Part shown: one piece after another, positions 15,990 to 37,390 of the stretch
Layout of the letters: the number at the start of each line of letters is the position of its first letter
How positions within the stretch are numbered: position 1 is the first letter of the stretch
Assembly (NCBI RefSeq): GCF_000746845.1
Contig: NZ_KN050846.1
Coordinates: forward strand, 2,062,963-2,126,962
DNA length: 64,000 bases
Source: Altibacter lentus
Lineage (GTDB): Bacteria; Bacteroidota; Bacteroidia; Flavobacteriales; Flavobacteriaceae
Direction of reading: 5' to 3'
The notes under the pieces: model-generated
Database searches by the model: none
The model's input: the letters and a program-made list of their open reading frames with translations, nothing else
Told to the model about the DNA's origin: nothing
Position numbers and translations under genes: made by a program

Positions 15990-16016
15990 TTTTATTTAGA
16001 GAGATTCTAAATAAAA
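15990..16016 (+). promoter_or_regulatory. Perfect 11-bp-arm inverted repeat upstream of the AraC gene, candidate iron/heme operator
   Basis: TTTTATTTAGA (15990-16000), five-base spacer GAGAT, TCTAAATAAAA (16006-16016), 15 bases before the ATG at 16032. A 25-bp window of it matches the element in front of feoA (37366-37390) at 20 positions, including a full 10-base left arm. It has no following T-run, so an operator is more likely than a terminator. Confidence 0.65.
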
Positions 16017-16031
16017 TAGCTTATCCACCGT

Positions 16032-16922
16032 ATGGAAGTACAAAAAAATGTCGCTCAAAGTTATTATGAAGAAGTATCGGTAGATACTAGTTTTTTTATA
16101 CTAAAATTTAACAATGAAACTATTGACAGCCAAGTGTTTACCCGGGAGATCGGGGCTCACTTCATTCAGTTTCATTTTTGTGTAAAGGGCGCTGCACACT
16201 TTAGCTTTAACGAGGGGACGTACAGCCTGCCCTTGCAAGAGGACAGCTCGTTGTTGTTGTATAATCCGCAACGCGATCTTCCCCTAGACCTTAGGGTGAA
16301 CAGTCAGTCCTGGGTGCTTTCCATGTTGTTACCTATTGAGAAATTCCACAGTCTTTTCTCCAAAGAAGCTAACTACATTCACTTTTTAAGTGATGAGAAT
16401 AAGGATAGGAAGTATTACAAAGATGCTACCATATCACCCTCTATGGCAATTGTGTTGAATCAATTGATGAATTACAACTTACATCCATCCATCAAACCGC
16501 TCTATTTTAAAGCCAAGGCGTACGAATTACTTAGCTTGTACTTCAATCGCCCTGCGGAAGCGAACGTGGAGCAATGTCCTTTTTTGGCAGATGAGGATAA
16601 TGTACTTAAAATAAAAAGGGCGAAGGAGATTATCATTGCACGAATGGCAGAGCCCCCTACCTTACAGGAGTTGGCCGAAGAGATCAAACTGCCCATTAAC
16701 AAATTAAAAGAGGGTTTCAAACAAATCTATGGCGATTCTGTCTTTAGTTTTTTATTCGATTATAAGATGGAAGTGGCCAGACAGCTTTTGGCGTCAGGGA
16801 ATCACAACGTGAATGAAGTCGGACTGAAGGTAGGGTACAGTACGGCAAGTCATTTTATAGCCTCTTTCAAAAAACGGTTTGGGACCACTCCAAAAAAATA
16901 CTTGATGAGCCTTACCGCATAA
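16032..16922 (+). CDS. AraC-family transcriptional regulator next to heme genes
   Basis: 296 residues. The C-terminal 100 residues are the double helix-turn-helix AraC domain (RAKEIIIARMAEPPTLQELAEEI onward, then VGYSTASHFIASFKKRFGTTPKKY as the second HTH and signature). The N-terminal part (about residues 15-150) is a cupin-like or otherwise unassigned sensing domain, HFIQFHFCVKGAAHF being its best-defined strand pair. It lies between the divergent hemA operon and hemH. Together with the inverted repeat in its leader this suggests regulation of heme or iron genes, but the ligand and targets are inference. A possible promoter (TTG at 15907, GATATTTG at 15933, one mismatch) lies upstream. Confidence 0.88.
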   Translation: MEVQKNVAQSYYEEVSVDTSFFILKFNNETIDSQVFTREIGAHFIQFHFCVKGAAHFSFNEGTYSLPLQEDSSLLLYNPQRDLPLDLRVNSQSWVLSMLLPIEKFHSLFSKEANYIHFLSDENKDRKYYKDATISPSMAIVLNQLMNYNLHPSIKPLYFKAKAYELLSLYFNRPAEANVEQCPFLADEDNVLKIKRAKEIIIARMAEPPTLQELAEEIKLPINKLKEGFKQIYGDSVFSFLFDYKMEVARQLLASGNHNVNEVGLKVGYSTASHFIASFKKRFGTTPKKYLMSLTA

Positions 16923-16962
16923 AAATAACTAATGGGCAGATTGGTATTTAATAGGTGTGCGA

Positions 16963-16994
16963 TTTGACGCTTGAATTTTTAAAAACTAATTTTG
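16963..16994 (+). promoter_or_regulatory. Promoter of hemH
   Basis: TTTG (16963-16966), 20-base spacer, TAATTTTG (16987-16994) is a full match to the Bacteroidota -33/-7 consensus. The hemH ATG is 22 bases further on. hemH can therefore be expressed independently of the AraC gene. Confidence 0.7.
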
Positions 16995-17016
16995 TTCCGA
17001 AATAAAGAATAGTACC

Positions 17017-18054
17017 ATGAAAGGAGTCCTCCTTGTAAATCTCGGCTCACCCGACAGCACCAACCCGAAGGATGTTAAAAGATATCTGGATGAATTCTTA
17101 ATGGATCCAAGAGTCATTGATGTTCCTCGGTGGGCTCGTATCTTGTTGGTACGAGGAATCATCCTGAACACACGACCCAAAAAATCGGCTGCTGCTTACG
17201 AACGTATTTGGTGGGAAGAAGGTTCTCCGCTTATTGTCATCTCAGAACGGCTTCAGAAAAAAATACAGGCCCGGACCACAGCACCTATTGCCTTGGCCAT
17301 GCGTTATGGCAGTATGACCTTGAAAAAAGGGCTTCAGGAATTGGTGGACCAGGGGGTAGATGATGTACTTGTAGCACCTTTGTATCCTCAGTTTGCCATG
17401 GCTACAACCGAAACGATCGAAGTTGCCATTGCTGCGCTTAAAAAAGAATTCTTTCCGGAGTTAGAGATCACCTCCCTACCGGCATTCTATCACAAACCCG
17501 AGTATATTGATGTGTTATCGAAAAGCATTTCAGAAACATTAACTAACATAGAATACGATCATCTCCTTTTTAGTTATCACGGGGTTCCCGAACGCCATAT
17601 ACGAAAAAGTGATATTACTAAATCGCATTGTACCATAGACAATAGTTGTTGTATCATGCCCTCTCCGGCGCATCAGTTCTGCTATCGCCACCAGTGTTAT
17701 GAGACCACTCGTTTGGTTTCCGAAAAATTGGATCTCACTCCGGGGACATTCTCTACCTCCTTCCAGTCGCGCTTAGGATTTGATCCTTGGCTTCAACCTT
17801 ATACAGATCGTACCATTGAACGAATGGGGAAAGCAGGAATCAAAAAACTGGTTGTTGTAACACCGGCCTTTGTTAGTGATTGCTTGGAGACCTTAGAGGA
17901 GATCGCTATGGAAGGCGAAGAGATCTTTCACGAGGTAGGGGGTAAGGAATTTACGACCATACCCTGTTTGAACGATCGCGATGACTGGGCAGAGGTTCTT
18001 ACCGGCTGGATAGATGAATGGCGCATCGTGGATGTTAAATCAGCAATTGCTTAA
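17017..18054 (+). CDS. hemH: Ferrochelatase
   Basis: 345 residues. It inserts Fe2+ into protoporphyrin IX to make protoheme. N-terminal GVLLVNLGSPDS, the metal-site His188 in SYHGVPERH and the acidic CLETLEEI near residue 289 are present. A cysteine-rich stretch between residues 205 and 227 (C205, C211, C212, C222, C227) occupies the region after the SYHG motif; some bacterial ferrochelatases bind a [2Fe-2S] cluster with internal cysteines, but whether this one does is unknown. It has its own promoter at 16963 and its stop codon overlaps the MATE start by one base. Confidence 0.96.
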   Translation: MKGVLLVNLGSPDSTNPKDVKRYLDEFLMDPRVIDVPRWARILLVRGIILNTRPKKSAAAYERIWWEEGSPLIVISERLQKKIQARTTAPIALAMRYGSMTLKKGLQELVDQGVDDVLVAPLYPQFAMATTETIEVAIAALKKEFFPELEITSLPAFYHKPEYIDVLSKSISETLTNIEYDHLLFSYHGVPERHIRKSDITKSHCTIDNSCCIMPSPAHQFCYRHQCYETTRLVSEKLDLTPGTFSTSFQSRLGFDPWLQPYTDRTIERMGKAGIKKLVVVTPAFVSDCLETLEEIAMEGEEIFHEVGGKEFTTIPCLNDRDDWAEVLTGWIDEWRIVDVKSAIA

Positions 18055-19430
18055 TGGCCAACGAACGGAGATCGGATACGCTTGGTAAAGATTCTATCAG
18101 TAAACTATTGATACGTCAGGCGGTACCTGCCTCCATTGGGATCCTGGTCATGTCGTTGAACATGATCGTCGATACTATTTTCGTTGGAAGGTGGATCGGT
18201 CCTTTGGCGATTTCGGCCATTACCGTAGTGATCCCTATTACGTTCTTCATTGGGGCCATTGGGCTCTCTATAGGAATTGGAGGAAGCTCCGTGCTATCCA
18301 GAGCGTTAGGCGCGGGGGATGAAGAAAAAGCGCTTCGGGTTTTCGGAAACCAGATCACACTTACTTTTTTAAGTTCTGGCTTGTTGGCTGTACTCGGACT
18401 TATTTTTCAACACGATCTTATTGAATTCTTTGGTGCCGATGAGTCCTTTAAGGACCTGGCGCTGGTCTATTATCGAATCGTGCTCTATGGTATCGTTATG
18501 TTGGCCATGTGTATGATGGGCAATAATGTGATCCGCGCCGAAGGCAAACCAAAGTTCGCAATGTATGCCATGATGCTGCCTGCCATCGGGAATATATTCA
18601 TGGACTATATTCTTATTAACGTTTTGGACTATGGCATGGAAGGTGCTGCTTGGGCTACTTTTATTAGTTATGCCGTATGTTTTGTGTTTATCTTGTGGTT
18701 TTTCTTTGCTAAAAGTGAACTCAGACTTCGCTGGGAATCATTTACCCTCCACAAAAGACTGGTTTCCGAAATTAGCAGCTTGAGCTTTGTAACCTTGGCA
18801 CGTCAAGGAACCATCGCCGTGATGACCGTTCTTCTTAACAATGTGTTGATCACCCACGGGGATGCATTGGATGTAGCTACCTACGGTATCATTAGTAGGA
18901 TGCTCATGTTCGCACTGTTCCCTGTAATTGGCGTCAATCAAGGATTTCTCCCTATAGCGGGATACAATTACGGAGCCGAACAATATCAACGCGTTCGCGA
19001 ATCGATCAATACTTCCATTAAATACTCCGGAGCCCTGGCGCTGCTCATTTTTGCCATTATCATGGTCTTTCCAACCGATATCGTTTCCATTTTTATTAGT
19101 AACAACCAAGGACTGGATGCCGAAACCCTTTCGAACAACGCGGAGATTTTACAGCGCACCCCCGATGCTTTGCGTTGGGTCTTTGCTGCGACTCCCGTAA
19201 TCGTGATCCAGCTTATTGGAGCCTCTTATTTTCAGGCCATTGGAAAAGCAATTCCAGCCCTGCTGCTTAGTTTAACAAAACAAGGTTTTTTCCTCATTCC
19301 CTTGGTTTTAATACTACCACAATATTTTGGCGTTTGGGGCGTCTGGATCTCATTCCCTATTGCCGATGTGCTCTCGACCATCGTGACCGGTTATTATTTG
19401 AATCGTGAAGTGCGGAAAATGATCGTATAG
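18054..19430 (+). CDS. MATE-family cation/drug antiporter
   Basis: 458 residues, about 12 transmembrane helices in two homologous halves (MatE domains about 17-180 and 240-410). The N-terminal IRQAVPASIGILVMSLNMIVDTIFVGRW is typical for MATE transporters that expel organic cations or other small molecules in exchange for Na+ or H+. The start overlaps the hemH stop codon by one base, so it is co-translated with ferrochelatase. Porphyrin or heme detoxification is an attractive inference, with no direct support in the sequence. Confidence 0.9.
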   Translation: MANERRSDTLGKDSISKLLIRQAVPASIGILVMSLNMIVDTIFVGRWIGPLAISAITVVIPITFFIGAIGLSIGIGGSSVLSRALGAGDEEKALRVFGNQITLTFLSSGLLAVLGLIFQHDLIEFFGADESFKDLALVYYRIVLYGIVMLAMCMMGNNVIRAEGKPKFAMYAMMLPAIGNIFMDYILINVLDYGMEGAAWATFISYAVCFVFILWFFFAKSELRLRWESFTLHKRLVSEISSLSFVTLARQGTIAVMTVLLNNVLITHGDALDVATYGIISRMLMFALFPVIGVNQGFLPIAGYNYGAEQYQRVRESINTSIKYSGALALLIFAIIMVFPTDIVSIFISNNQGLDAETLSNNAEILQRTPDALRWVFAATPVIVIQLIGASYFQAIGKAIPALLLSLTKQGFFLIPLVLILPQYFGVWGVWISFPIADVLSTIVTGYYLNREVRKMIV

Positions 19431-19478
19431 ATTTTTTGAAACCGAAGGGAACTATTATCTTTAAACAAACTTTTTTAC

Positions 19479-22400
19479 ATGCTTCTTATGAATCGATATC
19501 TCTTTAAATGTGTCCTTTTTCTTTGTTTTCTTTGCTTCGGAATCCCTTCTGAAAAGATTTCAGCACAAACCTACAATTCCCAACAATACGATGCTTTGGA
19601 GTACCGGCTTATTGGACCTTTCCGTGGCGGAAGAAGTGCTGCGGTGACAGGCGTTCCCGGCAAACCGAATCTTTTTTATTTTGGAGCAACAGGCGGCGGA
19701 ATCTGGGAAACAAAAGATGGAGGAAGACACTGGAAGAATATCTCCGACGGTTATTTTGGAGGTTCCATAGGAGCCATCGAAGTTGCTGCCGATGATCCAA
19801 ATGTGATTTATGTAGGTGGAGGGGAAAAAACTGTGCGAGGAAACGTTTCATCCGGTTACGGGATCTGGAAATCTGAAGATGCCGGTAAGAGCTGGAAGCA
19901 AATGGGTCTTGAAACAAGTAGGCATGTCCCTCGTTTAGCGATACACCCAAAAGACCATAACATTGTATATGCCGCAGTTCTGGGAAATATTTATAAACCT
20001 ACACAAGATCGGGGCGTATATAAAAGCACCGATGGGGGAAAGACATGGCGGAAAACACTTTTTGCCAATGAACAAGCCGGAGCCGTAGACCTTATCATGG
20101 ACCCTAATAATCCGCGCATCTTGTATGCCTCCACCTGGAATGTACAGCGAACACCTTATAGTTTGAGTAGTGGGGGAGACGGTTCTGCTTTGTGGAAGAG
20201 TACCGATAGTGGAGAGACGTGGAAAGAAATATCAAAGAATAAGGGGTTCCCAACCGATACGCTAGGGATCATTGGGATCACTGTGTCTCCGGCCAATAGT
20301 GACAGGCTGTGGGCCATAGTTGAAAATAAAGATAAAGGCGGGGTGTATAGAAGTGACGATGGCGGAGAGACCTGGGATCACGTAAACAGTGAACGCAAAC
20401 TGAGACAACGAGCATGGTATTACACACGTATCTACGCCGATCCTGTTGATGAAGATGTGATGTACGTACTTAATGTCAATTATCACAAAAGTACCGATGG
20501 AGGGAAAACTTACGAAACCTACAATGCACCACACGGCGACCATCACGACCTGTGGATCGCACCGGAGAACCCCAATAGAATGATCATTGGTGACGACGGA
20601 GGCGCACAGGTCACCTACGATGGCGGCGAAACATGGAGCACCTACTACAATCAGCCTACATCACAATTCTACCGCGTCACCACAGATAATTCATTTCCCT
20701 ATCGAATTTATGCTGCCCAACAAGACAATTCCACCATTCGCATCAAACACCGAAATGAGGGCTGGAGTATTGATGAAGATGATTGGGAATCTACCGCCGG
20801 TGGAGAAAGTGCTCATATAGCGGTAGACCCCGAAAATAATGATATTGTATACGGTGGAAGTTACGATGGTTTCCTGACCCGTTACAACCATGAGACGGGT
20901 ACGGTGAGAAGTGTTAGCGTCTGGCCGGACAATCCCATGGGACATGGAGCGGAAGCCATGAAATACAGGTTCCAATGGAATTTTCCAATCTTCTTTTCGC
21001 CCCATGACCCGAACAAGTTGTACACAGCTTCCAATCATTTGCACAGCACTATGAACGAGGGAGAAAGTTGGGATGTGATGAGCCCGGACCTTACACGCAA
21101 TGACCCTACCAAACTAAAATCTTCGGGAGGGCCCATCACTCAGGATAACACTTCGGTAGAATACTATGGAACCATATTTGCCGCAGCCGAATCGCCGGTG
21201 ACTCCGGGGGTCATCTGGACGGGAAGTGATGATGGTCTGGTGCATGTTACCCGTGACGGCGGAAAGACCTGGGAGAATGTAACTCCCAAGGGTATGCCGG
21301 AGTGGATGATGATCAATAGTGTGGAACCATCGGTGTTCGATGCAGGAACCTGTTATATTGCAGGCACCAAGTATAAGACAGGGGATTTTGCCCCTTACTT
21401 GTACAAAACTAATGACTTCGGAAAGACTTGGAAGAAGATCACGAATGGAATTCCCGCCGAACATTTTACCCGTGTGCTGCGGGAAGATCCAAAAAGAAAA
21501 GGGTTGCTGTATGCCGGCACCGAGACCGGAATGTACATATCTTTTGATGACGGAAGCAACTGGGCACCTTTTCAGCTTAACTTGCCCATCGTGCCAATCA
21601 CCGATCTGGCGCTGAAGGATAATAACCTTATTGTTGCTACACAGGGAAGAAGCCTTTGGATCCTTGATGATCTTACCGTTATCCATCAATTGGCTAGTGC
21701 AAAAGACAAAGATGTATTCCTGTTCAAACCAAAGGATACATACCGTATGGATGGAAATTCACGTTCGGGATCTCTTACCAGCGGAATGAATCACCCTAAC
21801 GGAGTGATGACGTATTTCTATGTGAAGGATCCTTCAGAAAAAGAGATACGATTGAGCTATCTCAACGCAAAGAATGATACCATCAAGACCTTCAGTACAA
21901 AAAGCAACGAAGACAAGTTGAAGGTAAAAGAAGGGGCCAACCTCCATATCTGGGACCTTCGCGGCGAAGGCGCAGAACGACTCAAAGGTATGATATTGTG
22001 GTGGGCCAGTACTGAAGCTCCACAGGCAGTGCCGGGAACGTACAAAGTGGTTCTGGAAGTAGGGGATGATATGCAATCACAGTCTTTCACGATCCTGCCG
22101 GATGCAAATGCCGAAACCGATCAAGAGGGGATGCAGCGACAATTCGATTTTATTACAGATGTCAATGCAACGGTAGACAAGGCCCATAAGTCCATCAAGA
22201 AAATACGAAAGATCAATGAGCAACTGGAAGCCTTTCAGAAACAATACAAAGACAATAAGTCCGTGCAGTCCTTAGTGGAAAAGGCAAAATCGCTTAGTGA
22301 GGAGTTTGGCAATATAGAAAAGGCATTGTATCAAACACAAAATCAGAGTGGACAAGACCCCCTCAATTTTCCGATAAGACTTACAAATAAATTAGCGCAT

Positions 22401-22595
22401 TTAAATAGTTTGGTAGGGATGGATGATTTTCCACCAACTCGGCAGGATATTGCAGTAAAGAATGAACTTACACAGCAGATCGATGCAGAACTACTGAAAT
22501 TCGAAACCTTGGTATCCAACGAGATCAAGGAATTCAACGATGCATTCAACGCCCAGAATTTAAATTATTTGTTTGTTGAAGAAGCCAAGGAATAA
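19479..22595 (+). CDS. Large exported BNR/VPS10-like beta-propeller protein
   Basis: 1038 residues. A signal peptide ends at about residue 30 (KISAQ); a start at the second Met (19488) is equally plausible. Residues about 40-760 hold many BNR/sortilin-like repeats with Asp-box motifs (STDGGKTW, SDDGGETW, TRDGGKTW and similar), giving one or two beta propellers. The C-terminal 170 residues are helical and charged, with possible coiled coil. Relatives are often annotated as glycosyl hydrolases, but Asp-box repeats alone do not prove catalysis. There is no T9SS sorting domain. Its stop overlaps the hemJ start by one base, an odd coupling. Confidence 0.85.
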   Translation: MLLMNRYLFKCVLFLCFLCFGIPSEKISAQTYNSQQYDALEYRLIGPFRGGRSAAVTGVPGKPNLFYFGATGGGIWETKDGGRHWKNISDGYFGGSIGAIEVAADDPNVIYVGGGEKTVRGNVSSGYGIWKSEDAGKSWKQMGLETSRHVPRLAIHPKDHNIVYAAVLGNIYKPTQDRGVYKSTDGGKTWRKTLFANEQAGAVDLIMDPNNPRILYASTWNVQRTPYSLSSGGDGSALWKSTDSGETWKEISKNKGFPTDTLGIIGITVSPANSDRLWAIVENKDKGGVYRSDDGGETWDHVNSERKLRQRAWYYTRIYADPVDEDVMYVLNVNYHKSTDGGKTYETYNAPHGDHHDLWIAPENPNRMIIGDDGGAQVTYDGGETWSTYYNQPTSQFYRVTTDNSFPYRIYAAQQDNSTIRIKHRNEGWSIDEDDWESTAGGESAHIAVDPENNDIVYGGSYDGFLTRYNHETGTVRSVSVWPDNPMGHGAEAMKYRFQWNFPIFFSPHDPNKLYTASNHLHSTMNEGESWDVMSPDLTRNDPTKLKSSGGPITQDNTSVEYYGTIFAAAESPVTPGVIWTGSDDGLVHVTRDGGKTWENVTPKGMPEWMMINSVEPSVFDAGTCYIAGTKYKTGDFAPYLYKTNDFGKTWKKITNGIPAEHFTRVLREDPKRKGLLYAGTETGMYISFDDGSNWAPFQLNLPIVPITDLALKDNNLIVATQGRSLWILDDLTVIHQLASAKDKDVFLFKPKDTYRMDGNSRSGSLTSGMNHPNGVMTYFYVKDPSEKEIRLSYLNAKNDTIKTFSTKSNEDKLKVKEGANLHIWDLRGEGAERLKGMILWWASTEAPQAVPGTYKVVLEVGDDMQSQSFTILPDANAETDQEGMQRQFDFITDVNATVDKAHKSIKKIRKINEQLEAFQKQYKDNKSVQSLVEKAKSLSEEFGNIEKALYQTQNQSGQDPLNFPIRLTNKLAHLNSLVGMDDFPPTRQDIAVKNELTQQIDAELLKFETLVSNEIKEFNDAFNAQNLNYLFVEEAKE

Positions 22596-23143
22596 TGGAA
22601 TACAATTATATAAAATCGCTGCACCTCATTTTTGTGATTACATGGTTTGCGGGATTGTTCTACATCGTCCGGCTTTTTGTGTATCAAATAGAGGCGGCTC
22701 ATAAGGCATCTCCGGAAAAGGAGATCCTTGGCAAGCAGCTTAAACTCATGTCCAAACGCCTTTGGACCATCATCACCTGGCCTAGTATGATCTTAGCGCT
22801 GGGGTTTGGCATTTGGGTAATCGCACTGCGTCCTTTTTACTTTACCGATGCTTGGATGCAGGTAAAACTCGGATTTGTAATAGCTTTGATATTCTACCAT
22901 TTTAAATGTCACAGCATCTATAATGAGCTTCAAAGGGATAAGGTTCGCTATTCGTCCGGCTTTATGCGACTGTTCAATGAAGGGGCTACGATCATTCTTT
23001 TTGCGGTCGTTTTTCTGGTGATTCTGAAAAATGCAGTGAACTGGATCTACGGAGTAGTAGGCATCGTGCTCTTTTCACTCCTCCTTATGCTGGGATATCG
23101 CTTCTACAAAAGATGGCGGGAACGCAACGAGGATAGCGAATGA
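22595..23143 (+). CDS. hemJ: Protoporphyrinogen IX oxidase, HemJ type
   Basis: 182 residues with four to five membrane helices. Annotation pipelines often call this family CopD-like. His10 (IKSLHLIFVITWFAG) and Lys91 (WMQVKLGF) fall where the essential His and Lys of characterised HemJ proteins lie. HemJ oxidises protoporphyrinogen IX to protoporphyrin IX, the step between HemF and HemH. No HemG or HemY is seen in the window, and the heme context supports the call. It starts within the stop codon of the BNR gene. Confidence 0.85.
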   Translation: MEYNYIKSLHLIFVITWFAGLFYIVRLFVYQIEAAHKASPEKEILGKQLKLMSKRLWTIITWPSMILALGFGIWVIALRPFYFTDAWMQVKLGFVIALIFYHFKCHSIYNELQRDKVRYSSGFMRLFNEGATIILFAVVFLVILKNAVNWIYGVVGIVLFSLLLMLGYRFYKRWRERNEDSE

Positions 23144-23249
23144 GAAATGCTGAAAATTCTCTGTTGCGTTTCTTTCCCGACCGGTTCAATGCAAGAGAGA
23201 AACCGCTTTGGTGTAATTATTGTTATCTTTCTGAAACATATTAACAATA

Positions 23250-24707: not shown

Positions 24708-24752
24708 TAATTTTAGAAGACAAAAAATCAAATACCACCAAAAACTTTTACC

Positions 24753-27974: not shown

Positions 27975-28031
27975 ACCAATTTTAAGGGGATCTTAGCAGC
28001 TTACAAGGTCAAAACTCTCTGTTGAATTGGT

Positions 28032-28039
28032 TATCTTTG
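28032..28039 (+). promoter_or_regulatory. Putative -7 element, TerB-DnaJ gene
   Basis: TATCTTTG, 31 bases upstream of the ATG at 28071. It lies 57 bp from the divergent element of the bacilliredoxin gene. No convincing -33 element. Confidence 0.45.
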
Positions 28040-28070
28040 GTCGCATTTTATTTATTGAAATTACACATAC

Positions 28071-28814
28071 ATGATTCGTTGGATCGCAGCCATTCTTGGC
28101 TATACTTTTTTTCGTTTTCCCGGAGCTATTCTGGGGTTTTTACTTGGAAGTCTATTGGACAATCTCACCAGCAAAAGAACCGGTGGCGGCTCTTTCCAGC
28201 AAGTCTTCCAACAACAACGGAGGGATCATGTTTCTCCTGCCGATTTTGAATTGAATTTATTGTCTCTGGCATCTCTTGTTATCAAAGCAGATGGCACTGT
28301 GAACCAGAGTGAGTTGGATTATGTGCGTCAGTATTTCGTACAGGCATACGGAACAGAGCGCGCCAATGCGACCTTTAGAGTATTTAATGACGTGATCAAA
28401 AAGCGGCAGATCTCTGCAAGTAATATTTGTACGTTACTTCGCTCCAGAACACGCTATGAGTCTCGTTTACAGATCCTGCATTTTTTGTTTAGTATTGCGA
28501 ATGCCGACGGGCATGTGTCCGATCGGGAGGTGCAGGAGATTCATCGAATTTCAGGATTCCTGGGGGTTCAGCATCCTGATTTTGAAAGCATCAAGGCCAT
28601 GTTCTTCAAAAACCCCGATCGTGCCTACAAGATCCTGGAGATCGATCCTTCAGCGTCTATCAATGAGATCAAGGCCGCTTACCGTACCATGGCCAAAAAA
28701 TATCATCCGGATAAGCTGCAACATATGGATGAAGCTTATCAGCAAGGGGCGGAAGAGAAATTCCGAAAGGTTCAGGAAGCGTACGAACAACTTCAGAAGG
28801 AACGCGGGTTTTAA
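28071..28814 (+). CDS. TerB-DnaJ domain protein (DjlA-like)
   Basis: 247 residues. A glycine-rich hydrophobic N-terminus (about residues 1-30) probably inserts in the membrane. A TerB-like helical domain follows (about 60-165; SLVIKADGTVNQSELDYVRQYF and NADGHVSDREVQEIHRI are its two acidic repeats). The C-terminal J domain (about 180-245) has the HPD motif in KKYHPDKLQ. The order matches DjlA-type membrane co-chaperones that stimulate DnaK. The gene appears monocistronic, divergent from the bacilliredoxin gene. Confidence 0.88.
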   Translation: MIRWIAAILGYTFFRFPGAILGFLLGSLLDNLTSKRTGGGSFQQVFQQQRRDHVSPADFELNLLSLASLVIKADGTVNQSELDYVRQYFVQAYGTERANATFRVFNDVIKKRQISASNICTLLRSRTRYESRLQILHFLFSIANADGHVSDREVQEIHRISGFLGVQHPDFESIKAMFFKNPDRAYKILEIDPSASINEIKAAYRTMAKKYHPDKLQHMDEAYQQGAEEKFRKVQEAYEQLQKERGF

Positions 28815-28860
28815 TAAAGGAATGAGAGTTCAAATGTCCTGTGCAAGCTCCTTTTAATCT

Positions 28861-28920
28861 ATATTTTTAGACAAGGGTAAAAATATTTATAGTATAAATA
28901 GAAAAATAGTTTTACCTTTG
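28861..28920 (+). promoter_or_regulatory. mntR promoter region with nested palindromes
   Basis: Contains ATATTTTTA-N8-TAAAAATAT (28861-28886), ATTTATA-G-TATAAAT (28885-28899) and the arms AAGGGTAAAA (28873-28882) / TTTTACCTTT (28910-28919, 9 of 10 paired). The -7 element TACCTTTG (28913-28920) ends four bases before the ATG, which predicts an almost leaderless message. Autoregulation by MntR is inferred. Confidence 0.55.
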
Positions 28921-28924
28921 CCCT

Positions 28925-29581
28925 ATGTTTTCATTAGCAGAAGAAAATTATTTAAAGGCTATTTATCATTTGGAGCACGAGAACCAGGGGGAAGTAAGTA
29001 CCAATGCTATCGCCGAACGTATGGATACCAAGCCGTCTTCGGTGACAGACATGGTACAGAAATTGGCCGAAAAGGAAGTACTTTCCTATAAGAAATACAA
29101 AGGAACCCTGCTCACGCCCACGGGGCGTAAGATCGCCGCAAATGTCATCCGGAAGCATCGGTTGTGGGAGGTATTCCTGGTAGAAAAACTCAATTTCCAC
29201 TGGGATGAGGTTCATGAGATCGCCGAACAATTAGAGCATATCCAGTCCGATGAACTTATTGTCCGTTTAGATAAATTCTTGGGCAGTCCGGATTTCGATC
29301 CACATGGGGATCCTATACCCGATAAGCATGGAAATGTAAAACGTACCGAAAAGAAATTGCTTTCCGAATGTGAAAAGAACCAAAGAGGTGTATGTGTAGG
29401 AGTGAAAGAATCAAGTGGTGAATTCCTTCAGTATTTGGATAAACGTAAGATAAGTATCGGAACTAAAATAAAAGTCCTTGGTAAGGAATTCTTCGATGGC
29501 TCCATGATCATTCAGGTGGGCAGTGATCAATTCTTTATTTCCCAAAAGATAGCAGAGAATCTCTATGTACAGACCAATTAA
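28925..29581 (+). CDS. mntR: DtxR/MntR-family metal-dependent repressor
   Basis: 218 residues, the length of DtxR proteins with a C-terminal SH3-like (FeoA) domain. The N-terminal winged helix starts EENYLKAIYHLE and has recognition helix TKPSSVTDMVQKLAEK; the dimerisation and metal domain (about 75-140) includes HRLWEVFLVEKL and HEIAEQLEHIQSDELI with candidate metal ligands. The FeoA-like tail spans about 150-218. It heads an operon with a metal ABC importer, so it probably represses that importer when Mn2+ (or Fe2+) is plentiful. The next gene starts one base after its stop codon. Confidence 0.9.
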   Translation: MFSLAEENYLKAIYHLEHENQGEVSTNAIAERMDTKPSSVTDMVQKLAEKEVLSYKKYKGTLLTPTGRKIAANVIRKHRLWEVFLVEKLNFHWDEVHEIAEQLEHIQSDELIVRLDKFLGSPDFDPHGDPIPDKHGNVKRTEKKLLSECEKNQRGVCVGVKESSGEFLQYLDKRKISIGTKIKVLGKEFFDGSMIIQVGSDQFFISQKIAENLYVQTN

Positions 29582-29582
29582 A

Positions 29583-30374
29583 ATGAAAAACCTAAGAACA
29601 GTGTTATTTTGCTTCTTAAGCCTTACTACTTTACAGCTAGTATGCCAAGAAGAGGGGGTCGTTTCAGAAATGATAACCGACCGACCGGATGCAACCGAAT
29701 CTCCTAATACGGTACCTAAAGCAATGCTTCAAATTGAGACCGGAGCCTTTTATGAATCTTTTGATGAAGGTGCAATGCAAATGGAAACCTTGGGCTATAA
29801 TACTACACTGCTTCGCTACGGAGTGCTAAAGAATTTTGAGCTAAGGCTGGGGTGGAATTTTGAAGAATTTAGAACCACGACCGATTCAGTGCAAGGTCAA
29901 AATGTGCTTTCAGGTTTCTCGCCGCTGCTGCTAGGAATGAAGGTTGAAATTGCCGAAGAAAATGGTTGGCTTCCAGAGATTGGCCTTTTGGGACATCTCT
30001 ACCTCCCATTCACGGCAGGAAATGACTATCGTCCCGAAACAACAGGAGTCGATTTTCGGTTCTCCATGGCACATACCTTAACAGAACGCGCCGGACTCGC
30101 ATATAATATTGGTGCCCAATGGGGTAATGACAGCCCGGAAGCTGCTTATGTGTATACGTTGGTGTACGGCTATCAACTAACGGAACAATGGGCCCTGTAT
30201 GCCGAAGTATACGGTGATCTCCCCGAAGACAGTAAAGCCAATCATTATTGGGATGCGGGACTCACATTTCTTGCAGCATCCAACCTTCAACTGGATGCCA
30301 CAGTGGGAAGAAGTATTACCGATGGACAAGACATTTTGTTAAGCGCGGGCCTAAGCATACGATTACCAAATTAA
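29583..30374 (+). CDS. Outer-membrane beta-barrel protein in the metal importer operon
   Basis: 263 residues from the ATG at 29583, one base after the mntR stop. A signal peptide ends near residue 21. MITDRPDATESPNTV near the mature N-terminus, followed by alternating strands to the last residues, is typical of the transporter/PF13557-like barrel family in Bacteroidota (around 12 strands). Placement between the repressor and the binding protein suggests that it lets metal ions cross the outer membrane, but this is context only. Confidence 0.8.
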   Translation: MKNLRTVLFCFLSLTTLQLVCQEEGVVSEMITDRPDATESPNTVPKAMLQIETGAFYESFDEGAMQMETLGYNTTLLRYGVLKNFELRLGWNFEEFRTTTDSVQGQNVLSGFSPLLLGMKVEIAEENGWLPEIGLLGHLYLPFTAGNDYRPETTGVDFRFSMAHTLTERAGLAYNIGAQWGNDSPEAAYVYTLVYGYQLTEQWALYAEVYGDLPEDSKANHYWDAGLTFLAASNLQLDATVGRSITDGQDILLSAGLSIRLPN

Positions 30375-30379
30375 TTATT

Positions 30380-31288
30380 ATGAAAAGAGTTCTTTTACTT
30401 TTACTTATTATTGGTTTCTTCGGCTGCAAAGAGACAAAGCAGTCGTCCGATAAACTGAATATTGTGACCACAACGACCATGATCACCGACTTGGTTAAGA
30501 ATATTGGAGGAGATGCGGTGAACGTTCAAGGTCTTATGGGCGCAGGTGTGGATCCGCATCTCTATAAGGCGAGTGAGGGCGATGTTTCCAAACTTTACAA
30601 TGCCGATATCATTTTCTATAACGGCTTGCATCTGGAAGGGAAGTTGGTTGAGGTTTTTGAGAAAATGGAGACACAAAATAAGACCCAGGTCGCACTGGCC
30701 GAATATTTGGACAAAAATACTTTGATCGGTTCTGAATATTTTGCCTCCAATTTCGATCCGCATGTATGGTTTGACATTCAGTATTATATTCAATTTGCCG
30801 AAAAGGTTGCCGAAATACTTTCTGAAGCCGATTCAGAGCATGCCGAAACCTTTCAGAAGAACAAAGAGAACTACATCAAAAAATTGAAGGAACTGGAGGC
30901 TGAGATCAAATCCACGATAGAATCACTTCCGAAGCAACAACGTATTCTGGTCACAGCGCACGATGCATTTAATTACTTCGGAAAGGCATACGATTTTGAA
31001 GTGGTAGGGCTGCAGGGTCTTTCTACGGCCACCGAAGCCGGAGTGCAGGACGTACAGCGGCTATCTGATTTTATTATCGAAAAGAATGTGAAAGCTATCT
31101 TTGTGGAGAGTTCTGTGCCTCGAAGGACTATTGAAGCACTGCAGCAAGCCGTATTGTCCAAGGGTGCCCAAGTGACCATAGGCGGTTCTTTGTATAGCGA
31201 TGCGCTTGGCAATGCCGGCACCGAAGAAGGAACGTATCTTGGTATGTTTCGTTATAATGTGAACACTATTGTTAATTCACTTAAATAG
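30380..31288 (+). CDS. Metal-binding lipoprotein of an Mn/Zn-type ABC importer
   Basis: 302 residues from the ATG at 30380, five bases after the barrel gene. The lipobox is GFFGC (Cys17). It belongs to cluster A-I binding proteins (PsaA/TroA/ZnuA). The three expected histidines are in GVDPHLYKAS, FDPHVWFD and TAHDAFNYF; the fourth ligand is Asp in GGSLYSDALG. The short linker lacks a His-rich loop, which favours Mn2+ or Fe2+ over Zn2+, in line with the MntR-type regulator. Its stop codon is directly followed by the ATPase start. Confidence 0.92.
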   Translation: MKRVLLLLLIIGFFGCKETKQSSDKLNIVTTTTMITDLVKNIGGDAVNVQGLMGAGVDPHLYKASEGDVSKLYNADIIFYNGLHLEGKLVEVFEKMETQNKTQVALAEYLDKNTLIGSEYFASNFDPHVWFDIQYYIQFAEKVAEILSEADSEHAETFQKNKENYIKKLKELEAEIKSTIESLPKQQRILVTAHDAFNYFGKAYDFEVVGLQGLSTATEAGVQDVQRLSDFIIEKNVKAIFVESSVPRRTIEALQQAVLSKGAQVTIGGSLYSDALGNAGTEEGTYLGMFRYNVNTIVNSLK

Positions 31289-32026
31289 ATGAAGACTCCA
31301 CTCGCCGTTCAAGTCGATGACCTAACCGTAGCTTACAACTATAAGCCGGTGCTTTGGGATATCGATCTTGCAGTACCCGAAGGGGTACTCATGGCCATCG
31401 TGGGCCCCAATGGTGCGGGGAAATCTACCTTGATAAAAGCCATTTTGGGGATCATCAAACCTATTGCGGGCAGTATTTCCATTTATGACAAGCCCTACGA
31501 AGAACAGCGAAAATTAGTAGCCTATGTTCCACAAAAAGGCAGTGTGGATTGGGATTTTCCTACAACCGCACTGGATGTAGTGATGATGGGGACCTATGGG
31601 AGTCTGGGATGGATAAAACGACCCGGTCAAAAAGAAAAGAAAGCAGCTCTGGAAGCCTTGGAAAAAGTAGGCATGCTTTCTTTCAAGAACCGACAGATAA
31701 GTCAATTGAGTGGCGGTCAACAACAGCGTGTTTTTTTGGCAAGAGCATTGGTCCAAAATGCTGCCATCTATTTTATGGACGAACCGTTTCAAGGGGTGGA
31801 TGCAACCACCGAGATCGCCATTATTAATATCTTAAAGGAACTTCGAAAGGCCGGAAAGACCCTTATTGTCGTGCACCACGACCTACAAACCGTCCCCGAA
31901 TATTTTGACTGGGTGACCTTTTTGAATGTAAAGAAAATAGCAACCGGCCCCGTAAAGGAGATCTTTAACGACGACAATTTGACCAAGACGTACGGCATAA
32001 ATTATAAGGTGGCTATTAATAAGTAA
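31289..32026 (+). CDS. ABC importer ATPase for Mn/Zn/Fe
   Basis: 245 residues, one ABC domain. Walker [10 protein letters not shown] (about 37-45), Q-loop [13 protein letters not shown], signature LSGGQQQR (about 139-146), Walker [13 protein letters not shown] and H-loop VHHDLQ are intact. It powers the importer formed with the binding lipoprotein and the two downstream permeases. It starts with no gap after the lipoprotein gene; about 110 bases separate it from the first permease. Confidence 0.93.
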
Positions 32027-32135
32027 AGAATGAAGTAATTGGGCGGCGTTGTGTTATTTGACGTATTGTCTTGCAGCTTTTATTTGAGATTATGCCTCTA
32101 ACGTTTAAAGCTGAAACATTAATTAGGAATCTTGT

Positions 32136-33254
32136 ATGAGCCTAACAGAATATTTCGAACTTCTTTTTACCGACTACACCCTTCGCACCATCACTTTGGG
32201 GACAGCGGTACTGGGGGCCATTTGCGGAATGTTGGGAAGTTTTGCCGTGCTTAGGAAGCAGAGCCTTTTAGGCGATGCGATCTCACACGCAGCTTTGCCG
32301 GGCATCGCTTTGGCTTTTCTTATCACAGGAGCCAAGGATACCAATATATTATTGCTGGGAGCCTTGGTGAGTGGATTGATCGGAACGTTTTGGATCAAGG
32401 GGATGGTGTCCAAAACCCACCTTAAAAGTGATACAGCACTGGGTCTTGTACTCTCTCTGTTCTTTGGATTCGGGATGTTGTTACTTACCTTTATTCAGAA
32501 ACAACCCAATGCCAATCAGGCAGGATTGGACAAATACCTGTTCGGGCAGGCGGCAACCTTAGTTGAGGATGATGTGCGCCTAATGCTGATCGTTACAGGC
32601 ATTAGTCTCTGTATCTTGTTGCTCTTTTGGAAGGAGTTTAAAATATTGCTCTTCGATGCCGATTATACCAAAACACTTGGTTTTAACACCAAGTTCATTG
32701 ATGTGCTGATTACTTTCTTTATTGTACTGGCCATTGTGCTGGGCTTGCAAACCGTTGGCGTGGTATTAATGAGTGCCATGTTATTGGCTCCCGCCGCCGC
32801 CGCCAGACAATGGACCAATCGTTTAAGTATGATGATCTTATTGGCGGCTATCTTTGGGATTCTTTCCGGGGTGTTGGGCACGGCCATTAGCGCGAGTCAG
32901 AATAACTTATCTACGGGACCTGTGATCGTTCTCGTGGCAACAGTCTTTGTTGTTTTTTCATTTATATTTTCCCCGGGAAGAGGCTTATTCTTTAGAGAGA
33001 TTCGTTTCAGAAATAACCGAAAGGATCTTCAGCTAAAGAAAACGCTTCAGTTTATGTACGGGATCGCCAAAACACACGACAACATCTCACACCCGCATGC
33101 CATTCGGATTCTTAACAATTTTCAAGGGTTCACCAAAAAATCCCTTCAGCAAATGGAGGATAAGGAATGGATCACCATCAATGGACAACAGTGGGCTTTA
33201 ACCAGTAAGGGCTTCAATGAAGCGATGAACCTTTATAACAAAACGCATGACTAG
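32136..33254 (+). CDS. Metal ABC importer permease 1 with winged-helix-like C-terminal tail
   Basis: 372 residues. Residues about 1-285 form an ABC-3 (TroC/ZnuB-type) permease with eight to nine membrane helices; LRKQSLLGDAISHAALPGIALAF is the conserved N-terminal block. The last about 85 residues are soluble, with helices and an end, WALTSKGFNEAMNLY, resembling the winged helix of DtxR/MarR proteins. Such a tail is absent from typical permeases of about 280 residues. The last eight bases overlap the start of the second permease gene. Confidence 0.88.
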   Translation: MSLTEYFELLFTDYTLRTITLGTAVLGAICGMLGSFAVLRKQSLLGDAISHAALPGIALAFLITGAKDTNILLLGALVSGLIGTFWIKGMVSKTHLKSDTALGLVLSLFFGFGMLLLTFIQKQPNANQAGLDKYLFGQAATLVEDDVRLMLIVTGISLCILLLFWKEFKILLFDADYTKTLGFNTKFIDVLITFFIVLAIVLGLQTVGVVLMSAMLLAPAAAARQWTNRLSMMILLAAIFGILSGVLGTAISASQNNLSTGPVIVLVATVFVVFSFIFSPGRGLFFREIRFRNNRKDLQLKKTLQFMYGIAKTHDNISHPHAIRILNNFQGFTKKSLQQMEDKEWITINGQQWALTSKGFNEAMNLYNKTHD

Positions 33255-34407
33255 TCCGCAGCTCGAAATACAATTAATAGCCGCTATTGTCGCCATTGCC
33301 TGTGCGATCCCCGGGGTTTTTTTAGTCCTTCGGAAAATGGCACTTATTAGTGACGCCATTAGTCATTCTATCCTTCCCGGGATTGTTGCGGGGTTTTTTA
33401 TCACACAGGACCTAAACTCTCCGTTGTTGATCCTGTTGGCTGCTATTACAGGCGTTATTACCGTTATTCTGGTGGAATCGATCCAAAAGACGGGGCTGGT
33501 GAAGGAAGATACCGCTATAGGTCTGGTATTTCCGGCCCTCTTTAGCATAGGAGTGATCCTTATTGCAAAGAATGCCAATGATGTGCATTTGGATATTGAT
33601 GCTGTACTTTTAGGGGAACTGGCCTTTGCGCCTTTTGACCGACTTATTATATCGGGAATGGATGTAGGTCCGAAGTCGCTTTGGCTTATGGGAAGCATCC
33701 TTTTGATTACTGTAAGCCTGTTATTTCTATTCTTTAAAGAACTAAAGGTAAGTACCTTCGATGCCGGGTTGTCTTCGGCTTTGGGGATCTCGCCGGTCAT
33801 TATGCATTATGGTTTGATGTCGGTGTCATCCGTTACCGTAGTTGGGGCTTTTGATGCTGTAGGAGCCATTTTGGTGGTCGCACTCATGATTGCACCGGCG
33901 GCAACGGCATATTTACTCACCAGTGACTTGAAGCGCATGATCGCTCTTTCCATAGGTTTCGGAATTTTTGCCGCTATTGGCGGCTATTGGGTAGCACATC
34001 TACTGGATGCTTCCATTTCGGGTTCTATGACAACCGTGCTGGGCTTGCTATTTCTGGGCGTCTACCTCTTTGCACCTCAAAAAGGGCTGTTGGCCGTACT
34101 CTACCGACAGAAACAACAACGCACGGAAGTTTCTCTCATTACGTTTTTACTTCACTTGAACAATCATTCCGAAGAAAACGAACGGCACCTCAACCATTTA
34201 AATGAACATATCAATTGGCAAAAGGTGCGATCGAAAACAGTTGTAGATCTTGCCCTCAAGAATAATATGATCACCATTGAAGGCCAAATAGTTTCACTCA
34301 CGGCGAAAGGGAACGATTTTACACAACGTGCACTCGAATACATTCTTACCAATAAAGATGAACGTATTGAAACCATGAAAGATGATTTCTTTCTTTTTCG
34401 CGGTTAA
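33247..34407 (+). CDS. Metal ABC importer permease 2 with winged-helix-like C-terminal tail
   Basis: 386 residues, paralogue of the preceding gene. The membrane part is about residues 1-285 with LRKMALISDAISHSILPGIVAGFF near the start. A soluble tail of about 100 residues follows, with several His (FLLHLNNHSEENERHLNHLNEH) and a winged-helix-like end, IVSLTAKGNDFTQRALEYIL. Two different permeases imply a heterodimer. The His-rich part could sense or receive metal; this is inference. The start overlaps permease 1 by eight bases. Confidence 0.88.
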   Translation: MTSPQLEIQLIAAIVAIACAIPGVFLVLRKMALISDAISHSILPGIVAGFFITQDLNSPLLILLAAITGVITVILVESIQKTGLVKEDTAIGLVFPALFSIGVILIAKNANDVHLDIDAVLLGELAFAPFDRLIISGMDVGPKSLWLMGSILLITVSLLFLFFKELKVSTFDAGLSSALGISPVIMHYGLMSVSSVTVVGAFDAVGAILVVALMIAPAATAYLLTSDLKRMIALSIGFGIFAAIGGYWVAHLLDASISGSMTTVLGLLFLGVYLFAPQKGLLAVLYRQKQQRTEVSLITFLLHLNNHSEENERHLNHLNEHINWQKVRSKTVVDLALKNNMITIEGQIVSLTAKGNDFTQRALEYILTNKDERIETMKDDFFLFRG

Positions 34408-34444
34408 TGTTTAGATCGTATCTTTAAACGTAAATTTTACCACT

Positions 34445-34861
34445 ATGAAAAAAATACTTTTGCTAAGTGCCTTTCTGCTCACTTCTTTATTAAATGCCCA
34501 AACGGAAACACCCGTAGAAGTTCCCACCATTGCCGTTAAAGTTCCGTTGGGAGAAACCGTTCATATAGGAGATATTTCGATCACATTCAGGGAAGTTCTC
34601 GAAGATTCTCGCTGTCCCAAAGATGTTAATTGCATTTGGGCGGGACGCATCCGACTTCAAATAGGAGTGGCAGTAGATCAAAAGACGGCATTTCTAAAAG
34701 AATTATTGCTGGGAGCAACCAAACCCGGGGAAGTGGAAGTTACAGAAATTTACAGCACCAATACCAGCGTTTTGGAAGCCGTAGCCGTCCAGCCGTACCC
34801 TACCAGTGAAGATAACGGTGACCGTGCGTATGTGTTATTGGTTTCTGAAAAAATGCGCTGA
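34445..34861 (+). CDS. Exported protein with conserved CPxDVxCIWAG motif, function unknown
   Basis: 138 residues. The signal peptide ends about residue 18 (LLNAQ). The mature protein is beta-rich, with DSRCPKDVNCIWAGRIRL near residue 57; two Cys here may form a disulfide. Similar DSRCP...CIWAG proteins occur widely in Bacteroidota without known function. It lies 37 bases after permease 2 and may be the last gene of the metal operon. Confidence 0.7.
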   Translation: MKKILLLSAFLLTSLLNAQTETPVEVPTIAVKVPLGETVHIGDISITFREVLEDSRCPKDVNCIWAGRIRLQIGVAVDQKTAFLKELLLGATKPGEVEVTEIYSTNTSVLEAVAVQPYPTSEDNGDRAYVLLVSEKMR

Positions 34862-34863
34862 TC

Positions 34864-35022
34864 CTAATGACAACCGCAATCTTTTTTGCCGCATTTGGTC
34901 TTACCACCGTCTAAAGTTCCCGGTGTTTTTTGGCGTCCTTCAAAAATAGGATTCCAGACGAACTTCTTTAATAAGTAGCCGGTCGCCAAACAGAATGTAA
35001 TAAGTACTAGAATAGTTTGCAT
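34864..35022 (-). CDS. FeoB-associated Cys-rich membrane miniprotein
   Basis: 52 residues, found by translating the gap between 34861 and 35035. It starts MQTILVLITFCLATGYLLKK, a single membrane helix, and ends KTKCGKKDCGCH, a Cys cluster. This layout matches the FeoB-associated Cys-rich protein family (PF12669 type). It begins 12 bases after the feoB stop codon on the same strand, which strongly supports the assignment. A role in ferrous iron handling is known only by association. Confidence 0.85.
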   Translation of the reverse strand: MQTILVLITFCLATGYLLKKFVWNPIFEGRQKTPGTLDGGKTKCGKKDCGCH

Positions 35023-35034
35023 ACTACAAAGATA

Positions 35035-37134
35035 TTATTTTAAAAATTGATAGGCTGCCAGTGCCACCACATAGGCTATGCTGCTCATAACCACCAACTG
35101 CCACAACGGCCATTTCCAACTATTGGTCTCTCTTTTAACTACTGCCAGCGTACTCATACATTGCATGGCAAAGGCATAGAACAGCAATAGCGAAACACCA
35201 CTCGCAAAATTGAACAACGGAGTACCCAGTACCGGGTTCACTTCTGCTGCCATACGATTCTTTATGGTCTCTTCCTCCTCGCTTCCCACACTGTAGATGG
35301 TTGCAAGGGTTCCCACAAATACTTCCCTTGCGGCAAAAGAACTTACTATGGCAATCCCGATCTTCCAGTCGTACCCAAGGGGGCGTACGGCCGGTTCTAT
35401 TCCTTTTCCAAGGATCCCAATGTAGGAATGCTCCAACTTATAGGAAGCAATGTGTGTTTCGATCTCTTCTTCGGAAGGATTCGTGCCTTCCAGTTGCTGT
35501 GTCACAATGGCTTCAGCATTATTGAAATCACCCGGGCCATAGGAGGCGAGTACCCATAGGATCACAGAGATAGCTAGAATGATCTTTCCGGCTCCCAATA
35601 CAAACGATTTTGTCTTTTCAACCACAGTAATGGCTACATTCTTGAACATAGGCAATTTGTAGTTGGGCATCTCCACGACAAAGAAGGTCTTACTGCGGAT
35701 CTTTAGGATACGATCCAACAAATAGGCCGAAAAGATCGCGGAAGCAAAGCCTAATAGATATAAAAACATTAAGGTGAGTCCTTGAAGGCTGAAAATACCG
35801 AGGACGCGTTGATCGGGAATAACGAGCGCAATGATAATGAGATAGACCGGCAAACGGGCAGAGCAAGTGGTAAAAGGTGTTACTAAAATGGTAATGAGAC
35901 GCTCCTTCCAGTTCTCAATATTTCGAGTGGCCATGATGGCAGGAATGGCACAGGCTGTTCCGGAGACCAGGGGCACTACGCTCTTTCCACTTAAACCAAA
36001 GCGTCGCATGACCCGGTCCATAAGGAAGACCACCCGACTCATGTACCCGCTTTCTTCCAGGATAGAAATAAACAGAAAAAGAAAGGCGATCTGCGGAATA
36101 AAGATCACGATACCTCCCAGACCGGGAATGATACCTTCGGCAATGAGACTGGTAAAATCTCCCGCAGGAAGCGAATTTTTGGTCCATTCGCTAAAACGCG
36201 CAAAAGAACTGTCAATAAAGTCCATAGGATAGCTGCTCCAATCGAAGATGGCTTGAAAGATAAGCAGTAAGATTCCGAAGAAAATAACATACCCCCAGAC
36301 TTTATGGGTAAGAATGCGGTCCAATCTGCTTCTAAGGTCCTTAGCGTTGGCAGTATCTACCGTAAGGGTTTCCTTAAGAGCGTTATTTATAAATTGATAA
36401 CGGGCAATGGTCTCTTTTTGCTGAAGCCGTTTCAAATTGCTCTTCGATTCGGTTTGAAAAGTGGCCACACCCTGCATTTCCTGTCGGTCTAATTTTCCAA
36501 AGTTCACATCTTGTGTTATGACCAGCCAGAGTTTGTACAGGTCTTGCTTCGGAAAAGCTTTTCGCAATCGGTCAAAATATTCGGGAGCAATGGACGATGC
36601 ATTCACACAGGGAGCGGTAGATAGGTGACCGTAATTGGTGATAAGGTCCTTGAGATTCTCGAAACCTAGATTCTTACGTGAACTAATAAGTGCGATCTTG
36701 GTTTCAAGAGTTGCTTCCAGGCGTTCTATATCTAAGGTGATCGCTTTCCGTTTCATCCTGTCGCTCATGTTGATGGCAAGGATGGTTGGAATTCCAAGGT
36801 CTTTAATTTGAGTAAAAAGGAGTAAATTCCGTTTTAGGTTTTCGATCTCTGCCACTACAATGGCCACATCGGGGAAATCCTTATCGTTCTTATTGAGCAG
36901 AAGTTCGATAACGACGTTCTCATCCAAAGAGGAAGCATTGAGACTGTAGGTGCCGGGCAAATCGAGGATATGAGCCTTTAGGCCACGATCCAATTTACAA
37001 ACCCCTTGCTTTTTTTCTACCGTGATCCCGGGATAGTTCCCCACTTTTTGATTGAGACCCGTAAGTCTGTTGAACACAGAGGTCTTTCCCGTATTCGGAT
37101 TTCCAATAAGAGCAACATTTATTTGTCGGGCCAT
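35035..37134 (-). CDS. feoB: Ferrous iron transporter FeoB
   Basis: 699 residues. The N-terminal G domain has G1 GNPNTGKTS (about 10-18), G3 DLPGTYSL and G4 NMSD; a helical GDI-like region follows to about residue 260. The rest holds two Gate domains and a nucleoside-recognition-like core with 8-10 membrane helices, including VPLVSGTACAIPAIMATR. It imports Fe2+ across the inner membrane. Its start overlaps the feoA stop by one base. Confidence 0.96.
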   Translation of the reverse strand: MARQINVALIGNPNTGKTSVFNRLTGLNQKVGNYPGITVEKKQGVCKLDRGLKAHILDLPGTYSLNASSLDENVVIELLLNKNDKDFPDVAIVVAEIENLKRNLLLFTQIKDLGIPTILAINMSDRMKRKAITLDIERLEATLETKIALISSRKNLGFENLKDLITNYGHLSTAPCVNASSIAPEYFDRLRKAFPKQDLYKLWLVITQDVNFGKLDRQEMQGVATFQTESKSNLKRLQQKETIARYQFINNALKETLTVDTANAKDLRSRLDRILTHKVWGYVIFFGILLLIFQAIFDWSSYPMDFIDSSFARFSEWTKNSLPAGDFTSLIAEGIIPGLGGIVIFIPQIAFLFLFISILEESGYMSRVVFLMDRVMRRFGLSGKSVVPLVSGTACAIPAIMATRNIENWKERLITILVTPFTTCSARLPVYLIIIALVIPDQRVLGIFSLQGLTLMFLYLLGFASAIFSAYLLDRILKIRSKTFFVVEMPNYKLPMFKNVAITVVEKTKSFVLGAGKIILAISVILWVLASYGPGDFNNAEAIVTQQLEGTNPSEEEIETHIASYKLEHSYIGILGKGIEPAVRPLGYDWKIGIAIVSSFAAREVFVGTLATIYSVGSEEEETIKNRMAAEVNPVLGTPLFNFASGVSLLLFYAFAMQCMSTLAVVKRETNSWKWPLWQLVVMSSIAYVVALAAYQFLK

Positions 37135-37361
37135 TAAGGTATCAATTCAATTTCAATCTGTGCGGCCGTTTCTTTTCGAATGGCTAGGTGACTGCCGTTG
37201 ATGTTTAAGTACATAGGATCCTGAAAAGGAGCTGTTTGCACTAAAAACACTTCATTGCCGGGAAGACATCCCATTTCCAAGAGTTTCAATGGTACTACTT
37301 CCACCGAAAACTCTTTGATGACAGCGCGTTGACCTTTTTTCAATGAGGCGATCGTTAGCAT
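37134..37361 (-). CDS. feoA: Ferrous iron transport protein FeoA
   Basis: 75 residues, a single SH3-like domain with LLEMGCLPGNEV and AIRKETAAQIEIE, standard length. FeoA is a small cytoplasmic partner of FeoB. It is first gene of the feoA-feoB-miniprotein run. A -7 element lies at 37392 and the putative iron operator at 37366-37390 covers the expected transcription start. Confidence 0.93.
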   Translation of the reverse strand: MLTIASLKKGQRAVIKEFSVEVVPLKLLEMGCLPGNEVFLVQTAPFQDPMYLNINGSHLAIRKETAAQIEIELIP

Positions 37362-37365
37362 TAAG

Positions 37366-37390
37366 TTTATTTAGATTGATTTTAAACAAG
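37366..37390 (-). promoter_or_regulatory. Candidate iron operator before feoA, matching the AraC-leader element
   Basis: Read on the plus strand: TTTATTTAGA (37366-37375), TTGAT, TTTAAACAAG (37381-37390). It matches the AraC-leader inverted repeat at 20 of 25 bases; the right arm is partly degenerate. It lies between the -7 element and the feoA ATG, where a repressor would block transcription. Confidence 0.6.

Follow-up and report, generated by a model that had tools for sequence, protein, structure and literature searches.

Predicted Fur operators in the leaders of feoA and of an araC-type gene beside hemA in Altibacter lentus

Two similar elements occur in the 64-kb stretch of the Altibacter lentus genome analyzed here (the window), one in the leader of an AraC-family regulator gene (here araC) that lies among heme synthesis genes and the other in the leader of feoA, and both are predicted to be operators of the ferric uptake regulator Fur (probability about 0.85). 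An earlier note on this DNA had proposed a common iron- or heme-responsive repressor for the two sites and had named a Fur-like protein, a DtxR-like protein, and the AraC protein itself as possible binders. A common iron-responsive repressor is supported as the best reading, and among the three proteins Fur is favored because the element closely matches a published Fur box and because matches to a model built on it stand in front of iron-linked genes in four genomes, whereas DtxR and AraC are disfavored on the grounds given below. The two sites and the promoter element next to one of them are as follows.

15994-16012, plus strand: predicted Fur box in the araC leader, ATTTAGAGAGATTCTAAAT; core 15995-16011, outer arms 15990-16016
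37367-37387, minus strand: predicted Fur box in the feoA leader, GTTTAAAATCAATCTAAATAA; in gene orientation it runs from 37387 down to 37367
37392-37399, minus strand: -7 promoter box of feoA, TACTTTTG (TAnnTTTG type), assigned from the sequence and the consensus in PMC9723704

The araC-leader palindrome (15990-16016) reads TTTTATTTAGA-GAGAT-TCTAAATAAAA (11+5+11), and its arms at 15990-16000 and 16006-16016, read by eye, are perfect around GAGAT at 16001-16005, as the earlier note had stated. That note had also put the identity between the two elements at 20 of 25 bases, which is correct for the 25-mers at 15991-16015 and 37366-37390, both of which begin with the ten bases TTTATTTAGA. The feoA box, TTTAAAATCAATCTAAATAA in gene orientation, is a weak palindrome (12 of 17 positions). 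Because araC starts at 16032 on the plus strand and feoA at 37361 on the minus strand, both elements lie in leaders. The araC box ends 19 nt and the feoA box, in its 19-bp form, 7 nt from the respective ATG, so that each lies less than 100 bp in front of an iron-linked gene, the link of araC to iron being inferred from its hem neighbors. The feoA box starts 5 nt past the -7 box TACTTTTG, which would place it approximately at the transcription start; TAnnTTTG is the -7 box consensus in PMC9723704.

First-order Markov controls indicated that neither the similarity of the two sites nor a palindrome within the hemA/araC gap is likely to have arisen by chance. A 25-mer matching the araC element at 20 or more of 25 positions on the plus strand occurred in 2 of 200 Markov windows, and 2 of 2,000 copies of the 191-nt gap contained a perfect palindrome (arms, 11 or longer; loop, 3 to 6). 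Under the same palindrome criteria, 2 of 40 Markov copies of the whole window scored and the real window gave six such counts, so the araC palindrome is not unique in the window. What makes the observation convincing is the comparison with relatives rather than the similarity of the two sites.

The element closely resembles the Fur box of Riemerella anatipestifer, ATTTAGAATTATTCTAAAT (PMC5609570), a consensus that is independent of this window. When the window was scanned with it, araC (16/19) and feoA (15/19) were the two best places in the 64 kb. Purified R. anatipestifer Fur shifted four promoters in electrophoretic mobility shift assays, including that of hmuR, whose box ATTTAAAATTATTCTAAAT is identical to the feoA site at 16 of 19 positions (PMC5609570). 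Fur binding to the rhuB promoter (box ATTTAGAATTATCCTAAAT) was Mn dependent, with RhuB upregulated in the fur mutant (PMC10986502), and rhuH was upregulated when either fur or the Fur box was mutated (PMC11967795). The R. anatipestifer box shares the 19-bp inverted repeat, the half-sites, and the odd symmetry (7-1-7 core) of the sites described here (PMC5609570, PMC10986502), and like them it is situated no more than 100 bp from the start codon. A literature search by box sequence gave a match only in PMC5609570, a search for a Bacteroidetes Fur consensus found nothing, and nothing fitting a Fur/MntR regulon reconstruction was present among the matches listed, as judged by titles and the openings of abstracts. 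For R. anatipestifer YM, a different, Escherichia coli-like sequence has been printed as the box (PMC7976709), and Table 5 of PMC5609570 (11 loci) differs in that neither feoA nor an araC gene is among the loci listed with a box. Flavobacterium psychrophilum has a single Fur, and attempts to delete it failed (PMC9331221). The sites described here also differ from the R. anatipestifer box in that the gene-proximal half runs on as TCTAAATAA. Classical Fur/PerR/Zur boxes have the 7-1-7 form of the TGATAATnATTATCA type and are likewise odd-centered inverted repeats with an AATnATT-like core, but their outer bases are TGAT/ATCA, in contrast to TTAG/CTAA here. A fur gene is present in the A. lentus genome (C1:1091503-1091970); its product carries the segment VSRATLYNTIE, presumably the recognition helix, which reads VSKATIYNTIE in two order-level relatives.

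Both elements look like conserved operators. In a set of 60 genomes, including that of A. lentus, the AraC protein was matched in 50 and FeoB in all 60, several of the weak FeoB matches probably being just related GTPases; AraC matches had E values of 2.3e-52 or better in 37 genomes (A. lentus included), after which they dropped to 5.5e-28. TTTAGA-N5-TCTAAAT lies within 130 nt upstream of the gene in 24 of the 30 best araC loci, box variants are present in two others (L049 and L051), and none of the 30 has the two half-sites at any other spacer from 0 to 12. A second scan took the best 80 of 548 relatives; these 80 are named, mostly Flavobacteriaceae by title, and include Aequorivita, Altibacter, Aquimarina, Leeuwenhoekiella, and Dokdonia. 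In these, TTTAGA-N5-TCTAAA was found in 61 of 80 araC leaders, always with a spacer of 5. A weight matrix scored at least 15 in 76 of the 80 leaders and at least 12 in none of 80 equal-length stretches within the araC genes; its training set, 52 sites of araC and feoA, came from the 60 genomes, with which the 80 may overlap in species. Of the 30 best feoB loci, most have a nearly invariant TTTAAAATCAATCTAAATAA, read in gene orientation, in the feoA leader. Among 51 genomes, A. lentus included, the feoA box scored at least 13 in 44 and at least 15 in 41, with both strands considered; in the remaining nine of the 60, a usable feoB match was lacking or the match was broken. By Fur status, the box (score of at least 13) was present in 44 of 49 genomes with Fur and in neither of the two without it, which belong to one genus and also lack DtxR.

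At the level of the whole genome, the loose two-site pattern TTTAGANNNNNTYTAAA with at most one mismatch fell at 71+63 places in A. lentus versus 44+61 for a reversed control. Since this was hardly better than the control, an orthologue-based model, R1, was built from 33 sites using sequence only. With R1, ten rows at an E value of 0.1 or less represented nine places in seven promoters. Those of feoA (the top match) and araC are there by construction, as their sites were used for training. The others precede two TonB-receptor-like genes, each having two boxes (E 0.12 for the second box of one of them), a gene for a 392-aa protein, also with paired boxes, the Fe-S carrier gene mrp/apbC, and a 67-aa open reading frame with a DsbA-like gene after it; the names of the receptors, which are cut open reading frames, and of mrp come from matches below model cutoffs. 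Weaker matches were located before sufA/sufB (E 3.67) and between a multiheme cytochrome gene and a SPOR-domain gene. A stricter pattern with up to three mismatches gave 12+17 places versus 7+5 in the reversed control, and the eight places with at most two mismatches correspond to five promoters, namely, the cytochrome/SPOR gap and those of feoA, the 392-aa gene, and the two receptors. Scanning three relatives (G003, G030, and G032) gave 36 rows in 30 loci, of which 24 were read and six were opposite-strand copies. Boxes at feoA and araC were found in all three, as expected, given that the araC sites had trained the model and the feoA sites equal trained ones. The mrp box was likewise present in all three, those at sdhC and at the cytochrome/SPOR pair in two each, and those at a gene for a 392-aa-like protein and at a DUF4856 gene in one each; the genes were recognized mostly by N-terminal likeness, and by profile only for one sdhC and the DUF4856 gene. 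The box is found before iron genes in this genome and in relatives, whereas the loose pattern hardly exceeds its control.

Several observations weigh against assigning the two sites to Fur. Two or more places matching the published consensus at 15 or more of 19 positions occur in 43 of 300 Markov windows, so this match alone is not rare. A genome scan with the two-site motif, as the earlier note had proposed, shows no clear enrichment, and R1 scored 150 of 3,592 first-look candidates, so its list may be incomplete. Several weak R1 matches in A. lentus fall inside genes or before unrelated genes, and matches in the relatives include two before genes not evidently linked to iron (L181 and L183) and one at which no gene was read (L178). 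Four of the 30 araC loci have no recognizable leader box (L039, L044, L052, and L053), and 5 of 46 genomes with Fur, DtxR, and feoB score below 13 at feoA. With only one genus (two genomes) of the 51 genomes lacking Fur, the absence comparison amounts to a single event. In R. anatipestifer YM, feoA and feoB are upregulated on iron limitation in the wild type (PMC5609570, Table 3), feoA still rises on iron limitation in the fur mutant, the fur mutant compared to the wild type gives values of -2.75/-2.25 for feoA and -3.03/-2.22 for feoB (Table 3), and the suf genes respond without Fur (PMC5609570). With feoA and feoB lower in the fur mutant, Fur does not act on feo as a simple repressor in that species; this and the persisting iron response of feoA point to another iron-sensing input or an indirect effect there.

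The partly Fur-independent iron control of feo in R. anatipestifer (PMC5609570) would also suit a different common repressor, namely, the DtxR/MntR-family regulator encoded between the two sites, responding to iron or manganese.

28925-29581, plus strand: three-domain DtxR/MntR-family regulator (PF01325, PF02742, PF04023)
28862-28885, plus strand: palindrome in its promoter, TATTTTTAGACAAGGGTAAAAATA, spacer 4, one mismatch to the pattern described below, distinct from the Fur box

In many relatives, this gene and feoB are no more than about 10 kb apart, and the TTTAG(A)/(T)CTAAA half-site in its promoter is nearly identical to that of the araC and feoA boxes. DtxR/IdeR and MntR boxes likewise have AT-rich half-sites with TAG/CTA steps. 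We nevertheless consider binding of this regulator to both sites improbable, because the dtxR promoters differ in spacer and the feoA box persists where DtxR is not matched. The pattern TTTAG-N6-CTAAA (spacer 4) was found in 22 of 30 dtxR promoters, with no other spacer from 0 to 12, although the half-site used was looser than that for araC; the araC and feoA boxes have a spacer of 5, in araC leaders invariably, so that the two kinds of site share half-sites but are one base pair apart in spacing. Three of three genomes with Fur and without a PF02742 match keep the feoA box (scores of 13.4 and 14.3, both weak, and one above 15). The closest family model of the regulator is a manganese regulator (NF047407, an MntR model and the best NCBIfam match, at 167.7 bits, below the cutoff of 350), and ZnuA/ABC-3 metal uptake genes follow on its 3' side. 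The dtxR pattern also occurs in two further loci cut at the edge (L095 and L099) when searched for anywhere in the locus, and the conserved spacer-4 palindrome before dtxR/mntR is probably autoregulatory. Genome-wide, the DtxR-type pattern occurred at 8+4 places, fewer than the 12+13 of the control, and no DtxR regulon is therefore claimed.

Binding of the AraC protein to both its own leader and feoA is very unlikely. AraC proteins often autoregulate, and one of the sites is in the leader of its own gene, but in several genomes boxes also precede feoA, mrp, and TonB-receptor-like genes; proteins of the AraC family usually have direct repeats as sites rather than a symmetric box of 17 to 19 bp; and the other conserved element, on the hemA side, would suit an AraC site better. 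An equally slight chance is left for the araC palindrome acting as a hairpin in the leader RNA, in which it is probably transcribed with its 11-bp arms, as none of six pairs changed on both sides and a G-C pair was broken in 14 of 32 sequences in the joint araC/feoA alignment, with the right half TCTAAAT constant where the left half varies.

The genes around the two predicted Fur sites and the further conserved elements of the hemA/araC gap are as follows.

16032-16922, plus strand: AraC-family regulator gene with a C-terminal HTH_18 domain (Pfam PF12833, E 8.3e-18)
14569-15840, minus strand: hemA, divergent from araC (PF05201, PF01488, PF00745)
to 11949, after hemA: hemC, hemD, and hemE (PF01379, PF02602, PF01208)
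17017-18054, plus strand: hemH, ferrochelatase, downstream of araC (PF00762)
37135-37361, minus strand: feoA (PF04023)
35035-37134, minus strand: feoB (PF02421, PF07670, PF07664)
15882-15908: AACGC-N17-TCG(TT) element upstream of the hemA promoter (-7 box), candidate AraC-protein site
15932-15943: palindrome of the form TGA-N6-TCA, TGATATTTGTCA, conserved in the promoter region of araC

AACGC-N17-TCG, a candidate site for the AraC protein, was found with a spacer of 17 in 69 of the best 80 loci and also emerged from an alignment of 14 of the 30 araC loci. TGAY-N4-RTCA was present in 43 of the 80, and we take the palindrome to resemble a CRP/FNR-type site.

We infer Fur binding at both sites, the sign of control, the transcription starts, and the action of AraC on hemA as parts of one scheme. 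Under iron-replete conditions, dimers of Fe(II)-Fur would bind sites of the TTTAGAAT-N-ATTCTAAAT type and block initiation or elongation, at feoA at the transcription start and at araC in the transcribed leader past the start; when iron is scarce, both genes would be released. Fur at feoA would control ferrous iron import, and Fur at araC would put the AraC-type regulator under iron control. The AraC-type protein would probably act in turn on the divergent hemA-hemCDE operon via AACGC-N17-TCG, linking iron status to heme synthesis. The new part is most likely the putatively Fur-controlled AraC regulator divergent from hemA, the Fur box itself being of a known kind. Our literature searches found no relevant paper on an AraC-hem-Fur link in flavobacteria, and we do not claim its absence from print beyond those searches.

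The 392-aa protein (L122, 1599-2777; G000:C1, near 3069064) has a signal-peptide-like start and two Fur-type boxes before its gene, and it has no match in NCBIfam, Pfam, or PDB sequences. A protein of G003 with a similar N terminus also has two boxes (L174 and L182). Boxes before sdhC and in the multiheme cytochrome/SPOR gap were seen in several genomes (L173, L177, L131, L184, and L186) and would fit direct iron-sparing control of respiration.

For the Flavobacteriaceae, a tentative extension, to which we give somewhat less than even odds, is that Fur acts on a dedicated AraC-type heme regulator in an iron-to-heme relay and that Fur and DtxR/MntR share TTTAGA/TCTAAA half-sites, split by one base pair of spacing (5 versus 4). 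This raises the question of whether a single base pair of spacing separates two metal sensors. With the sites described here, the iron switch of a large family of marine and freshwater bacteria gains a well-supported sequence definition that is usable across genomes, and a heme-linked regulator joins the likely Fur targets of the family.

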